In this document: one piece after another, positions 5,160-63,178 of the stretch
Layout: each line of letters starts with the position of its first letter
How positions within the stretch are numbered: position 1 is the stretch's first letter
Assembly: GCF_036898825.1 (NCBI RefSeq)
Contig: NZ_JARUND010000002.1
Coordinates: 3,720,001 to 3,784,000, forward strand
DNA length: 64,000 nt
Direction of reading: 5' to 3'
Source: Streptomyces sp. B21-083
GTDB lineage: Bacteria; Actinomycetota; Actinomycetes; Streptomycetales; Streptomycetaceae
The notes under the pieces: generated by a model
Seen by the model: only the letters and a program-made list of their open reading frames with translations
Database searches by the model: none
Told to the model about the DNA's origin: nothing
Translations under genes and position numbers: made by a program

Positions 5160-5330
5160 TCAACGTACCCGGGACTGAAGTCCTGGGCTTGCAGAGCGGG
5201 CGCCACTGGTTGTGGTGCTGCGCTTGCATCCGGTCCCACGCCCGGGTTCGGGGGGTGGGTCTGGGGCGGTTGACTGCGCCCCGCGTCGCCACAACTCTTC
5301 CGCGCGTGCGCGGATGTTGCGGGAGCTGTT
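5160..5330 (-). ncRNA. candidate omega RNA of TnpB
   Basis: In IS605-type elements the omega RNA covers the 3' end of tnpB and the right end. Here the right end carries a 9-bp hairpin (5168-5187, one G-T pair) and terminal TTGAC. The bases beyond it (below 5160) would be the guide, which is DUF6585 coding sequence. The 5' boundary is a guess. Confidence 0.4.
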
Positions 5331-6413
5331 GCGGTCTGCGTGATCAACGAATCCGCAGGACCGGCACGCGAACCAGGCCTGGGAGACCCGGTTCGCCTTG
5401 TCGATGTGGCCGCATTCGGCGCAGGTGCGGGAGGTGTACGCCGGATCGACGTACACCACCGGCACCCCTGCCTTACGGGCCTTGTACGCGATGAACGACC
5501 CCAGCTGGGCGAAGCTCCAGCTGGAGTGGGTGGCCCGTTGGGGCTTGCGAAGCCGTACCCGTTCACGGATGCCGCCCAGGTCTTCCAGGGCGATTCCGCG
5601 TCCGGTGCGTTCTGCCTCGGCCACCACATGCTTCGCGATCTTGTGGTTGATGTCCTTCGCCCGCCGCGCCTCCTTGCGCCGCCGTTTCTTCAGGCGGCGC
5701 CTGGCGGACGGGGTGTTCTTCTTCTGCAGCTTGGTCCGCAGTGTGCGTTCACGCAGCCGCCCCCGATTGAGTTCACGCCCGGCCATGATCTGGCCGTCAC
5801 TCGTGGTGGCGATGTTCACGATCCCCAGGTCGATGCCGAGGAAGCCGTCGGGGTCGGTGTTCAGGGGTGCTTCGGGGATCTCGCAGGTGGCCTGCAGAAA
5901 CCACATGCCGTCCCGCGCGACGAGGTCGGACTCGCCCTTGCGGTACAAGGCCAGGCGGGCCAGCTGCTCCGGGGAAGCGGTGAACGCCACCTGCTTCATC
6001 CGCCCGGACAGGGTCCACAGGGAGACGGTCCGGTCGGTGATCTGCCAGGACAGCATCCGGTCGTCATAAGGCTGAGCACCCTCGGCCCGAAACGTGATCG
6101 GCTTCTCCGCCGCCCGCCGGTAACGCTTCGACCACGGCCTGCCCAGATTCCCGGCCTTCAGATTCGAGGCCAGCGTCCGGTAGGCGTCACAGGTCTTCTT
6201 GACGGTGTGCTGGGCGGCCTGCGCCCCCAAACCCCACCGCTGCCTGATCTCGGCGTAGGTGTGCTCACGCAGCGCGAAGTTCCGCTTCGCATCCTTGGCG
6301 AAGGCGACCTCGGACGCCCAGGACGCGGCCTCGTTGCAGGCGTGCAGGGTCGCCTCAAGTGCCGCCGCCTGTATGGGCGTCGGTAGCAGCTTGACCTGCA
6401 CCACCAGCTTCAT
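5160..6413 (-). CDS. tnpB: TnpB RNA-guided nuclease (IS605 OrfB family)
   Basis: A 417-residue TnpB from ATG 6413 (MKLVVQVKLLPTP, the family start); 16 further upstream codons are probably not used. The N-terminal helix-turn-helix/WED region is followed by a RuvC domain with an intact triad: D195 (GIDLGIVN), E277 (ALEDLGG) and D360 (DHADRN). The four-Cys zinc finger (C331, C334, C350, C353) is complete. TnpB cuts DNA next to a target motif using an omega RNA encoded at the element's 3' end and helps retain the transposon. There is no tnpA Y1 transposase, so mobility would need help in trans. The TGA stop lies in the terminal TTGAC of the right end, so the coding frame runs through the end hairpin. 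Confidence 0.92.
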   Translation of the reverse strand: MKLVVQVKLLPTPIQAAALEATLHACNEAASWASEVAFAKDAKRNFALREHTYAEIRQRWGLGAQAAQHTVKKTCDAYRTLASNLKAGNLGRPWSKRYRRAAEKPITFRAEGAQPYDDRMLSWQITDRTVSLWTLSGRMKQVAFTASPEQLARLALYRKGESDLVARDGMWFLQATCEIPEAPLNTDPDGFLGIDLGIVNIATTSDGQIMAGRELNRGRLRERTLRTKLQKKNTPSARRRLKKRRRKEARRAKDINHKIAKHVVAEAERTGRGIALEDLGGIRERVRLRKPQRATHSSWSFAQLGSFIAYKARKAGVPVVYVDPAYTSRTCAECGHIDKANRVSQAWFACRSCGFVDHADRNSSRNIRARAEELWRRGAQSTAPDPPPEPGRGTGCKRSTTTSGARSASPGLQSRVR

Positions 6414-6508
6414 GACACCCGAACCTACACACCCCTCCGTACACACAGACGTCTTCCGCACAACCGTCCCACCATCCAGCGATCCGTCGACTGCACGTTC
6501 GAACTACC

Positions 6509-6578
6509 CCGGCTCCGCCGGACAGCCCCACGGGCGCTCCGCGCCCGAACTCCCGGACACCGCGACGCTCCGCGTCGC
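6509..6578 (-). other. three tandem GGA-triloop hairpins upstream of tnpB
   Basis: Three perfect inverted repeats, each with a 3-nt loop, read GGA on the minus strand: 6509-6521 (5-bp stem), 6531-6547 (7-bp stem) and 6562-6578 (7-bp stem). They would lie in the 5' leader of the tnpB transcript or in a neighbouring element's end. The region 6414-6814 has no convincing gene apart from these structures. Confidence 0.7.
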
Positions 6579-6594
6579 CACCACACGATGCGAT

Positions 6595-6640
6595 TCCTCC
6601 CAGCCTTAAACGCCTGGGGTTCCTCACAAGAATCTCGCTG
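6595..6640 (-). repeat. relic right end of a second TnpB-type element
   Basis: Read on the minus strand, a hairpin with CCCAG/CTGGG arms (6599-6603 with 6614-6618) is bracketed by GAGGAAC and GGAATC. This arrangement resembles the right-end hairpin of IS605-family elements. It is in the same orientation as the intact tnpB but upstream of it, so it would belong to another, mostly lost, copy. Confidence 0.35.
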
Positions 6641-6814
6641 AAGTTCGGGAAGCGGCCCAGCCACCAGAAGCACACCAGTCCGGGGACTTCGCCACTTGAA
6701 CCAGTCCCACGGACAAGGTGCGCGACACGACCCTCCCCTGCACTCACTCCCACTCACCAGAACGCTCTTGAACGCACTCCAGCGGTAGCAGCTCCAAACC
6801 CCTCCTGCCTCCCC

Positions 6815-7234
6815 ACGGCCGCCGGCATCACAACAGCCGTACTACGGGAGGACGAACTGCTCGTCGCCCTCCACCGCGAACACCCCCTGGCAGGAGCGGA
6901 GTCGGTCGACCTGCGCGACCTGCGCGACGAGACCTGGCTCCAGGACACGTACGGCGACCGCCCCACCATGCTCGCCGACGCCTGCGCCCGGGCCGGCTTC
7001 AGCCCCCGCAAAATCATCAGAATCGCGGAGTGGACAGGCAAGTTCGGCTACGTCGCCGCAGGCCTGGGAGTGGCCCTCGTCCCGTCACTGGCCACCTGGG
7101 CGCTCCCGGCCGAACTCGCCCTGTGCCGAGTCACCGACCCGGCGCTCCGCCGCACGGTCCACATGGCGTTGCCTGCCGCCCCGCTGCCGGCGGCACTGAA
7201 ACTCGGGGAGTTGCTGCGGGGCGCCACGGGCTGA
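6815..7234 (+). pseudogene. 5'-truncated LysR-family regulator
   Basis: The frame from about 6815 reads TAAGITTAVLREDELLVAL, then HREHPLAGAESVDLRDLRDE, and ends AALKLGELLRGATG. This is the C-terminal lobe of a LysR effector-binding domain. The N-terminal winged helix-turn-helix and the first half of the sensor domain are missing, and the sequence upstream is mobile-element debris. The internal ATG at 6968 could start only an 88-residue fragment. It is best read as a regulator destroyed by rearrangement at the TnpB site. Confidence 0.75.
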
Positions 7235-7339
7235 ACCGTCTCCCAGGCCAGATACGACAGGGCGACCCTCTCGGCCGGAAGGGACGGGGCAGGCGTTTAA
7301 TCGGATGTGCGTGCAGCGCGGAGTTGTTAGGTTCGCCGT

Positions 7340-8071
7340 GTGCCGAAGCTGAATCAGATCATCGCCGTCGAAAAGGGCGTCAAGTCCAAGGCTCTCCAGG
7401 AGCTCACCCAGGCTCACCAGGACGTGCAGAAGCCCGCCCTGCTGGCCGGCATCTCCCGGACCTACCAGCCCAAGGACGAGGAGGGCGAGCAGTTGCCGCC
7501 CGAGTCCACGCGGGTGCAGATCAAGGCCGAGGACGCTCTGCGGGCGACCGCCGGGACGCTGACGCGGCTCTTCGACGTGACCGCCACGAAGGACTGGGCG
7601 AACCGGTCTGCGGTCGCGGACGTGGTGGTCGACGGTACGGTGCTGTTGCCCCAGGTGCCCGTCCCGTACCTGCTGTTCCTGGAGAAGCAACTCACCGACC
7701 TGCACACCTTCGTGCGCAAGCTGCCGGTGCTCGACGCCTCCGAGTCGTGGAACCTGGACCCCTCGACGGACTCGTGGAAGACGGACCCGGTGCGGACCAT
7801 CCGCACGAAGAAGGTTCCGCGCAACCACGTGAAGGCCGAGGCCACGGAGAAGCACCCGGCGCAGGTCGAGGTGTACTACGAGGACGTCCCGGTCGGTTAC
7901 TGGACCACGGTGAAGTTCTCCGGCGCGCTGCCCGCCCGGCGGGTCAACGAGCTCCTCGACCGCGTCGAGAAGCTCCAGCAGTCCGTCAAGTTCGCCCGCG
8001 AGGAGGCGAACAACACCGAGGTCACCGACCAGCGGGTCGGCGACGCGGTGTTCGGCTACCTCTTCCGGTAG
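7340..8071 (+). CDS. conserved hypothetical protein (DUF7873-like)
   Basis: A 243-residue soluble protein starting at GTG 7340 (MPKLNQIIAVEKGVKSK). It is charged, with no signal peptide or membrane segment. It has a helical N terminus, a central region with DWANRSAVADVVVDG, a segment KTDPVRTIRTKKVPRNHVKAEATEKHPAQ rich in Lys/Arg, and a C-terminal helical tail ending FGYLFR. The family is frequent in Streptomyces, and I know no assigned function. The basic middle part could bind nucleic acid. It is followed by a hairpin (8084-8104) and then directly, in the same direction, by two permuted tRNA-like modules, which raises the question of a functional link. Confidence 0.8.
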   Translation: MPKLNQIIAVEKGVKSKALQELTQAHQDVQKPALLAGISRTYQPKDEEGEQLPPESTRVQIKAEDALRATAGTLTRLFDVTATKDWANRSAVADVVVDGTVLLPQVPVPYLLFLEKQLTDLHTFVRKLPVLDASESWNLDPSTDSWKTDPVRTIRTKKVPRNHVKAEATEKHPAQVEVYYEDVPVGYWTTVKFSGALPARRVNELLDRVEKLQQSVKFAREEANNTEVTDQRVGDAVFGYLFR

Positions 8072-8083
8072 CCCCCACATACG

Positions 8084-8104
8084 CCCTCCGTCGCGAGCGG
8101 AGGG
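8084..8104 (+). terminator. hairpin between the DUF7873-like gene and tRNA-like modules
   Basis: A perfect 7-bp stem (8084-8090 with 8098-8104) and 7-nt loop lie 13 bp after the stop codon. No T tract follows, so it may be a weak terminator or a processing site. Confidence 0.5.
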
Positions 8105-8145
8105 TGCGCGATGAGCGCAAGCTGAAACTGATGTTGAAGCTGATC

Positions 8146-8231
8146 AAGGGGTGTCAGTTGGGGGTTCGAATCCCTCTCCCCGCACCACGTGCGGGGGTGG
8201 CCCAAGCCTGGCAGAGGCGGCCCCGTGAAAC
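8146..8231 (+). tRNA. circularly permuted tRNA-like module A
   Basis: The order is 3' half then 5' half. 3' half: anticodon-stem 3' strand GGGGT 8148-8152, variable region 8153-8159, T stem 8160-8164/8172-8176 with loop TTCGAAT, acceptor 3' strand 8177-8183, discriminator A and encoded CCA 8184-8187. After a 3-nt spacer comes the 5' half: acceptor 5' strand GCGGGGG 8191-8197, T8-G9, D stem GCC/GGC 8200-8202/8216-8218, anticodon-stem 5' strand GCCCC 8220-8224, then G32-T33. The acceptor strands pair over 7 positions (one G-T), and the anticodon-stem strands over 5 (one G-T). T33 is in the expected place. The anticodon cannot be fixed because the joining point is unknown (GAA, GAC or GTC are possible). 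Confidence 0.6.
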
Positions 8232-8295
8232 TCAGATTCTCGCTCCAGTCTCAGTATTCGCCGCCGAACACCGGATCGACCGAGCGTGGGCGAAC

Positions 8296-8375
8296 ATCGA
8301 CGGATGGGGGTTCAAGTCCCCTCGGCGCCTCTCTCGTGGCGCTGTAGTTCAAAGGCAGAACACGTCGATCTCAAT
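8296..8375 (+). tRNA. circularly permuted tRNA-like module B
   Basis: Same order as module A. 3' half: anticodon-stem 3' strand CGACG 8298-8302, GAT, T arm 8306-8322 with loop TTCAAGT, acceptor 3' strand CGGCGCC 8323-8329, discriminator T 8330, no encoded CCA. A 7-nt spacer follows, then the 5' half: acceptor GGCGCTG 8338-8344, T8-A9, D arm GTTC/GAAC 8347-8361 with loop AAAGGCA, anticodon-stem 5' strand CGTCG 8363-8367, then A32-T33-CTC-A. The acceptor pairs 7 of 7 (one G-T) and the anticodon stem 5 of 5. The D arm and discriminator look glycine-tRNA-like, yet the most consistent anticodon is CTC. Both halves read C-A at positions 36-37, so joining after 35, 36 or 37 gives the same loop. Confidence 0.65.
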
Positions 8376-8426
8376 ATGACCCGCGGTTCTTAAACGCCGT
8401 CGGTGTGCGCAAATGGGTGGCAAGCT

Positions 8427-8459
8427 GGAGCCCGGGAGCTGGACATGCTCCCGGGCTCC
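8427..8459. terminator. strong terminator after the permuted tRNA-like modules
   Basis: A perfect 13-bp stem (8427-8439 with 8447-8459) and 7-nt loop. It lies between the rightward tRNA-like modules and the leftward acetyltransferase gene, so it can end both transcripts. Confidence 0.85.
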
Positions 8460-8536
8460 GTCACGTTGTGGTCCGAAGTGGGCCCCATGCCTGCACGCGC
8501 GCGAGCCGAGGGGTTCGCACACTCCCGTCCCGCTTG

Positions 8537-45019: not shown

Positions 45020-45093
45020 GGTGGGTGTAGCTCAGCTGGTAGAGCACCTGGTTGTGGTCCAGGATGCCGCGGGTTCAAGTCCCGTCACTCACC
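45020..45093 (+). tRNA. tRNA-His(GTG)
   Basis: A full cloverleaf: acceptor GTGGGTG 45021-45027 with CACTCAC 45086-45092, D arm GCTC/GAGC, anticodon loop TTGTGGT (GTG), and T loop TTCAAGT. G at 45020 (position -1) opposite C73 at 45093 is the histidine identity pair. CCA is not encoded. A likely -10 TACACT lies at about 44966. Confidence 0.95.
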
Positions 45094-62382: not shown

Positions 62383-63105
62383 ATGAGCAGCCCACACACG
62401 GACATCTCGGGAGTCACCTCGGAGGGAGCCGCCTGGCTCGCCTCCGCAGGAACGTATCCGCGCAGCACGCTCTCCCTCTGGGCCGAGCGGCCCACCGCTC
62501 CGCTCGTCCTGCCCTGCGGCACCGCGTTCGACGTCGTCAACGTGCCCGCCGTCTTCGGCCGCAGGATGCTCGACCGGCTCTGGGACGGCGGACCGGGCTC
62601 GGGCCCCGTGGCGGCCTACCGGGGCCGGATCCTCCTGTTCGCGGCACTGGGCACGGCCCAGCGGCTGCCGTCGCTCCTGAGGTGGGAGGAATGGGGCTCG
62701 GCCGGCGAGGGCGGTACCGGACGGCGCCACGCGATCCCGCCGCTCCTCTGCCACGGCCGCGGCGACGCCGTGACGGTCCCCGCCCTGGTGAACGACGAGA
62801 CCGGAGACGGGAATGGAGCCGGATATGGAGACAGGACGGGAGGGGGGACAGGCGAGGGGACTGGAGACGAGATCGGACACGCCACCCGATGCGGGAGCGG
62901 AGACGGCTCCGAGGGTGATCCCCGGCCCGAATCCCGCTGGGTCGTCGCCCCCGACACCAGTCGCCCCTGGCTTCCGGGCCCGGAAATCCTGCTCTGGGCG
63001 GCCGTCCGAGCGGCCCGTTCCGCGGTCGCCGGTGGGGTGCGGATATCGATTTTTCCTCCCGTCGATCAGGGTGCTAAGGTCTACGACGTCAGCAGGCGCC
63101 GCTAG
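62383..63105 (+). CDS. bifunctional primase/polymerase-like protein, C terminus running into tRNA-Lys
   Basis: A 240-residue protein from ATG 62383 (MSSPHTDISGVTSEGAAWLASAGTY). The PLVLPCGTAFDVVNVPAVFGRRMLDRLWDGG block resembles the Prim-Pol-like family common in streptomycetes, and RWVVAPDTSRPWLPGPEILLWAAVRAARS is its usual C terminus. The normal catalytic acids are not all visible. A Gly/Asp/Thr-rich insert of about 40 residues (DGNGAGYGDRTGGG) lies near residue 145. The frame stops at 63103-63105, inside tRNA-Lys, overlapping it by 10 bp. Confidence 0.7.
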   Translation: MSSPHTDISGVTSEGAAWLASAGTYPRSTLSLWAERPTAPLVLPCGTAFDVVNVPAVFGRRMLDRLWDGGPGSGPVAAYRGRILLFAALGTAQRLPSLLRWEEWGSAGEGGTGRRHAIPPLLCHGRGDAVTVPALVNDETGDGNGAGYGDRTGGGTGEGTGDEIGHATRCGSGDGSEGDPRPESRWVVAPDTSRPWLPGPEILLWAAVRAARSAVAGGVRISIFPPVDQGAKVYDVSRRR

Positions 63106-63169
63106 CTCAGTTGGTTAGAGCAGCTGACTCTTAATCAGCGGGTCCGGGGTTCGAGTCCCTGGCGGCGCA
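63096..63169 (+). tRNA. tRNA-Lys(CTT)
   Basis: A full cloverleaf: acceptor GCGCCGC 63096-63102 with GCGGCGC 63162-63168, D arm GCTC/GAGC, anticodon loop CTCTTAA (CTT), T loop TTCGAGT, discriminator A at 63169. CCA is not encoded. Confidence 0.95.
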
Positions 63170-63178
63170 CGTTGTCGA

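Follow-up and report, generated by a model that had tools for sequence, protein, structure and literature searches.

The stretch directly 3' of the stop codon of a DUF7873 gene in Streptomyces sp. B21-083 holds a conserved element, at about 8082–8459 of the window (the whole stretch of DNA analysed, 64,000 nt), in which two modules, module A (8148–8224) and its twin module B (8296–8369), carry the parts of a tRNA in the same permuted order. Rather than a tRNA gene, it is probably a noncoding RNA whose mimicry of tRNA serves to hold proteins that handle tRNAs. More specifically, the element is probably a Y-RNA-like RNA, which would assemble with the DUF7873 protein into a particle and dock tRNA-binding enzymes through its twin tRNA mimics. 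The original prediction, which concerned module A, was of a circularly permuted tRNA gene; the permuted order, the arms and T33 proved to be real and conserved, but a tRNA gene was not supported.

All parts of the element lie on the plus strand, as does the DUF7873 protein gene that is its constant neighbour (PF25283, 243 aa; 7340–8071; Pfam E 6.9e-121). A 5' hairpin (8084–8105), recognised by sequence reading and in alignment A1, lies outside the RNAalifold consensus and differs in sequence among species, and the 5' limit of the element is uncertain. Unit A (8121–8255), taken from the RNAalifold consensus of 56 sequences, is a long interrupted stem (8121–8136/8242–8255) bearing module A, which was delimited by sequence, a strict detector, covariation and a sub-threshold match to YrlA. 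Module A begins with an anticodon-type 3' strand, GGGGT (8148–8152), and continues with a T arm (8160–8176; T loop TTCGAAT, 8165–8171), an acceptor 3' strand, TCCCCGC (8177–8183), an acceptor loop, ACCACGT (8184–8190), which places ACCA (8184–8187) next to that strand, an acceptor 5' strand, GCGGGGG (8191–8197), a D arm (8200–8218) and an anticodon-type 5' strand, GCCCC (8220–8224). Unit B (8260–8421) rests on the consensus, covariation and a model, R1, and comprises the stems 8260–8265/8416–8421, 8269–8274/8400–8405 and 8282–8290/8380–8389, with a conserved TTAAACG (8390–8396). The module that it bears, supported by covariation and another sub-threshold YrlA match, is made up of an anticodon-type 3' strand (8296–8302), T arm (8306–8322), acceptor 3' strand (8323–8329), acceptor loop TCTCTCGT (8330–8337), acceptor 5' strand (8338–8344), D arm (8347–8361) and anticodon-type 5' strand (8363–8369). 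A 3' hairpin (8427–8459; loop TGGACAT), with 11 pairs in the RNAalifold consensus, is a possible terminator. Hairpins with a GGRYA loop were found 3' of the modules in 66/91 bacterial and 45/82 phage loci, against 10/164 background stretches; the GCTC core motif, present in 52/82 phage loci versus 57/164 background stretches, is weak evidence.

The strings quoted in the original prediction (GGGGT, TTCGAAT, TCCCCGC, GCGGGGG and GCCCC) all occur where it had placed them, and its view that module A forms no normal cloverleaf when read linearly agrees with ARAGORN and with Rfam at gathering scores, neither of which calls a tRNA there. Acceptor, D, T and anticodon-type stems are all present in permuted order. 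That the rearranged module would look like a tRNA was also upheld, as all 198 selected modules were called by ARAGORN once rearranged around a neutral loop, compared with five of the 198 in natural order and 93 with swapped halves. The closest isotype for the D arm of module A is tRNA-Leu in 51/52 bacterial and 46/47 phage cases (97/99 in total; Leu makes up 64 of the 471 entries in the isotype library), and the same comparison gave no clear isotype for module B. T33 of module A (8226) is invariant in the 56 aligned A1 sequences even though the anticodon loop is absent: joining the halves yields no loop with an anticodon and, in the consensus fold, the strands past the anticodon-type stem run on into longer, conserved stems of a bigger RNA. 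Variable loops close the acceptor ends of both modules. A short hairpin takes the place of module A in seven of 85 loci, the window being one of the 85 (L022, L036, L038, L073, L077, L080 and L081, found by the spacing of two core motifs; the motif position in L046 was false), so that module A behaves as an exchangeable domain on a stem. Because there is no anticodon, the acceptor ends are closed by loops and module A can be replaced by a hairpin, the tRNA shape is best seen as a domain of a larger RNA.

Compensatory changes in relatives, which the original prediction had put forward as a check, are found in the acceptor and T stems and, for module B, in the anticodon-type stem. The RNAalifold consensus has 86 pairs, 42 of them with at least one two-sided change. 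Aligning unit B by sequence only (33 sequences) leaves 97.3% of the cells paired, with two-sided changes at 27 of the 40 pairs and a covariation score of 0.430 against 0.189 for shuffled alignments (none of 500 as high) and 0.062–0.151 for slid partners. Module A on A1 has a T stem that is 100% paired and an acceptor stem that is 99.7% paired, the anticodon-type stem being paired in 69.7% of cells, where gaps shift that strand. Two-sided changes are seen at 8 of its 20 pairs, 113 of 500 shuffles equal its number of further pair types, and its covariation is 0.189 versus 0.158 for a slide by -1. The interrupted stem of unit A varies hardly at all, and its predicted pairing is supported by conservation, not by covariation.

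The modules are concentrated in the stretch after DUF7873 at a density that exceeds chance. A strict detector, requiring a T stem of 5/5, an acceptor stem of 7/7, U8 and a GG-bearing D loop, was applied to 171 distinct downstream stretches from 179 loci (L090, one of 180, was left out, its match being on the other strand). Within 700 nt after DUF7873 it found 168 modules in 62.0 kb of bacterial loci (2.71 per kb) and 117 in 55.4 kb of phage loci (2.11 per kb); the opposite strand of these 700-nt stretches gave none in either group. Across both strands of the remaining sequence there were two in 1.55 Mb of bacterial loci (0.0013 per kb) and nine in 1.40 Mb of phage loci (0.0064 per kb). Both bacterial detections in this control sequence are in the Nonomuraea locus L002 and look like Y RNAs, since a Ro60 gene lies just downstream; those in L137, L098 and L134, among the nine from phages, coincide with R1 matches and are the same RNA elsewhere in the locus. 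In loci with at least 450 nt downstream, two strict modules were present in 79/89 bacterial and 42/78 phage loci, a single one in a further 10/89 and 31/78, and none in 5/78 phage loci.

The element is closely linked to DUF7873. The neighbour protein matches PF25283 at 403 bits (cut-off 27), and its AlphaFold2 model is confident (mean pLDDT 93.7, pTM 0.78), with no clear match among known folds; a full-text literature search returned no paper on DUF7873. We infer an RNA-binding role for the protein purely from this linkage, that is, from gene order. All of the first 84 relatives (the best 80 of 575 genome contigs and four plasmid records, one plasmid being represented twice) have DUF7873 with recognisable core motifs downstream. 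R1 models the module-B unit and was built from actinobacterial sequences, without phages. Of 121 Streptomyces genomes, 59 carry DUF7873, and precisely these 59 gave full-length R1 matches of 48–153 bits, always on the same contig and strand and 146–351 nt downstream of the DUF7873 match; that the element tracks DUF7873 in 59 of 59 genomes also speaks against a tRNA gene. With Infernal at stricter filters, the other 62 genomes have no R1 match of 48 bits or more. Some R1 match occurs in 113/121 genomes, the weaker ones scoring 45 bits or less. DUF7873 was found in 7 of 396 genomes sampled across the phylum, all of them Streptomyces, and protein searches added Nonomuraea, Streptosporangium, Planomonospora, Actinomadura, Micromonospora and others. 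The control genome, Deinobacterium chartae, has both DUF7873 and TROVE.

Among known RNAs the closest resemblance is to YrlA, which passages of PMC8394870 describe as bearing, on a stem, a tRNA-like domain made up of D, T and acceptor arms. The element likewise has a tRNA-like domain with acceptor, T and D arms, and R1 also finds modules adjoining Ro60 genes in Streptomyces, but there are two modules, the core is its own, and the constant neighbour is DUF7873 and not Ro60. YrlA itself binds PNPase and carries tRNA modifications. Permissive Rfam scoring of 8050–8520 gave 13 matches, the best two of which were to YrlA (RF02553), one over each module (8284–8389, E 0.0057, for module B; 8136–8242, E 0.084, for module A), at 24.4 and 20.4 bits, far below the gathering score of 69. 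Rfam gave no confident match for the element, and no YrlA reached the gathering score in 13 other loci scanned, five of which were weak R1 matches near Ro60. The window's own genome has no match to Ro60 (TROVE). As no Ro60 match was found in that genome and the Rfam score falls short, the element has been filed as a tRNA mimic working like the YrlA domain and not as a Y RNA. No description of it was seen among the papers listed by literature searches, although the core YrlA papers may mention related RNAs without Ro60.

TROVE occurs in 67/121 Streptomyces genomes; 36 have it together with DUF7873, 23 have DUF7873 only, 31 TROVE only and 31 neither, and on these counts (36 with both, 23 with DUF7873 only) the DUF7873 cassette is independent of Ro60. 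Each of the 14 short R1 matches among those listed (model positions 34–95 in 13 and 33–96 in one) lies 1.0–1.2 kb upstream of a TROVE match on the same strand, so these are likely Ro60-linked Y RNAs. Permuted modules near TROVE in L213 (201–262), L214 (177–235), L218 (547–608) and L220 (269–329), which receive no call at the Rfam gathering score, are likely unannotated Y RNAs of this kind. In Nonomuraea gerenzanensis (L002), two Y-RNA-like modules and a Ro60 gene (5334–5570 and 5598–7382) lie about 2.5 kb upstream of the DUF7873 cassette.

If the element works as a Y-RNA-like RNA, 8082–8459 would be transcribed as a noncoding RNA and DUF7873 would bind its core stems, taking the position that belongs to Ro60 on Y RNAs. 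A partner that recognises tRNA (PNPase, RNase P, an enzyme that modifies tRNA or one that cleaves it) could then be recruited through the elbow and acceptor stack; a Y RNA tethers Ro60 to PNPase, as stated in parts of PMC8394870 and PMC8058203. In phages the cassette, sometimes located inside tRNA arrays, may protect or process tRNAs during infection. Bacterial tRNA mimicry is known from few examples, tmRNA and YrlA being those named in passages of PMC8394870. The element would add to these a family with two mimics per RNA and a constant neighbour other than Ro60, found in 59/121 of the Streptomyces genomes sampled and in phages whose hosts differ widely. It would also supply a function for DUF7873 and opens a direct test of what an anticodon-less tRNA body is for.

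Matches to DUF7873 were found in 73 of 50,697 phage records, with hosts belonging to Vibrio (29), Gordonia (12), Rhizobium (12), Klebsiella (7), Serratia (6), Arthrobacter (3), Pseudanabaena (2), Rhodococcus (1) and Microcoleus (1), and in 85 IMG/VR stretches, of which the best 80 were kept; the phage set includes near-duplicates (e.g., L132 and L172). An R1 match at E <= 4.4e-7 lies 99–772 nt downstream of DUF7873 in 71 of the 87 phage loci searched (L148 left out), and in another two a strong match is found elsewhere in the locus. No strong R1 match was seen in 14 of the 87, at least three of which are cut off by contig ends. ARAGORN detected tRNA genes in 53 of the 88 phage stretches fetched. 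Eight phage records were inspected with their annotation: the cassette stands within a tRNA array in four (GodonK, Racecar, NiceHouse and RHph_Y65), tRNA genes occur within about 4 kb of it in KpLz-2_45, K479 and Fryberger, and PA-SR01 has none annotated near the cassette. Ro60 was matched in 7 of 50 phage records searched; the other 43, many of them possibly fragments, gave no match. TROVE proteins in jumbo phages are noted in passages of PMC7824862. In Rhizobium phage RHph_Y65 (L228, 1580–3148), a TROVE gene shares the tRNA array with DUF7873. Gordonia phage GodonK (L172, 3384–3912) has a tmRNA by Rfam (90.3 bits), inside which the record annotates a tRNA-His.

A tentative alternative is that these cassettes represent a separate class of RNA–protein particle, in which DUF7873, without Ro60, holds twin tRNA bodies, one with a Leu-like D arm. 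Were this true, the particle could occupy two tRNA sites at once, either on the ribosome or on two tRNA enzymes, and might regulate translation or tRNA repair in infected cells.

The main rival is processing at the acceptor loops, where host RNase P and RNase Z would cut to leave three base-paired pieces with two chargeable CCA ends. In permuted tmRNA, the T arm and acceptor end are written before the acceptor start. The two-piece tmRNA resembles the element in being permuted and bacterial (passages of PMC3985003), but the element has a D arm, two modules and a link to DUF7873, and the only Rfam tmRNA matches in 8050–8520 are fragments of 15–17 nt (6.4 and 7.7 bits versus 47). The order of parts and the position of the loop are those of permuted tmRNA precursors, for which cutting by RNase P and RNase Z has been proposed (passages of PMC3985003). 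Among the 99 loci paired by script, 69 of 198 modules have NCCA immediately after the acceptor strand, where about three would be expected by chance: 50/99 modules A (26/52 bacterial, 24/47 phage) and 19/99 modules B (0/52 bacterial, 19/47 phage). In the same loci, the first position past that strand holds A in 84/99 modules A and T in 64/99 modules B. CCA is also encoded in 26 of 54 modules from phage loci whose ordinary tRNA genes mostly lack it, but the contrast between locus classes is weak (18/24 versus 26/54, p 0.047; the modules are not independent). Against such processing, CCA is absent from 129 of the 198 modules, including all 52 bacterial modules B, and many acceptor loops are short and could stay closed. 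In L150 and L151, about 80–235 nt past the DUF7873 stop, a tRNA-Arg-like body in normal order (called by ARAGORN in L151) appears, when read by eye, to sit in the acceptor loop of module A, with the acceptor helices of module and insert continuous. Cleavage of this kind is rather unlikely.

The element may instead be a decoy, its tRNA bodies soaking up host or phage enzymes that attack tRNAs. The position of the cassette within the tRNA arrays of the four phages named above is in line with this. Phages counter host attack on tRNAs with their own tRNAs and with repair systems, according to passages of PMC7824862, and parts of PMC7790460 propose a competitor role for YrlA. However, a widespread form of attack described in passages of PMC7824862 is cleavage of the anticodon loop, which the element lacks, and a decoy could do without a fixed protein partner, whereas DUF7873 goes with the element in 59/59 Streptomyces genomes. 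A decoy is distinctly unlikely.

A true circularly permuted tRNA gene of the archaeal and algal type, with a circular RNA through which its halves are joined, is highly improbable. The tRNA body obtained on rearrangement in all 198 selected modules, the invariant T33 of the 56 sequences and the Leu-like D arm of 97/99 modules A would fit it, and the permuted order is shared with the archaeal and algal genes (passages of PMC3978253). Unlike those genes, the element has no anticodon, its flanks pair into a conserved core, and the permuted body is a domain of a bigger element and, in module A, dispensable and replaceable by a hairpin; the cases described in passages of PMC3978253 also depend on a bulge–helix–bulge motif and a splicing endonuclease.

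That the modules are decayed tandem tRNA genes, or normal-order tRNAs that are poorly called, is scarcely credible, and the evidence against decay as the present state is strong: 97.3% paired cells and two-sided change at 27/40 pairs would not survive decay, and the twin layout is kept from Streptomyces to Gordonia and Arthrobacter phages. The original prediction had named an intact normal-order tRNA in homologues as the finding that would count against it, and this was seen in part, as ARAGORN run on the first 450 nt after DUF7873 in 179 loci made 21 calls, 12 of which, all bacterial (12/91 loci), join T arm A to the 5' hairpin; the window has no such call in those 450 nt. We read the twelve as spurious: they are marginal, their variable arms are long, their anticodons differ, and they pair 5–7 acceptor positions against 7 for the permuted partner in 12/12. 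Since all 7 acceptor pairs form in either order in four of the twelve, an alternative normal-order fold is conceivable. Of the nine phage calls, eight are placed 3' of detected modules and look like separate tRNA genes, the ninth being the tRNA-Arg-like body of L151.

Junctions between tandem tRNA-Asn genes (L210, 207–514; also L211, L212, L215, L216 and L221) are laid out in the same order, the T arm and acceptor end being followed, after a spacer, by the acceptor start and D arm. With R1 scores of up to 42.6 bits, they count in favour of decay and are a source of false positives in screens for permuted tRNAs. They are also a plausible route to permuted tRNA shapes, and the order seen in the element may have begun at such a junction, with the T arm and acceptor end coming from one gene and the acceptor start and D arm from the next.

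The only ordinary tRNAs in the window (by ARAGORN, and by Rfam at gathering scores) are at 45021 and 63096. The latter, a tRNA-Lys (63096–63170; C2:3783096), has tRNA matches of identical score at 3795038 and 3806423, and this spacing of 11–12 kb within the genome suggests repeated segments. Upstream of the cassette, a gene for a TnpB-family RNA-guided nuclease lies on the minus strand (5160–6461; NCBIfam, 201 bits), and between it and DUF7873 there is a fragment that, read by eye, resembles the end of a LysR-type regulator.
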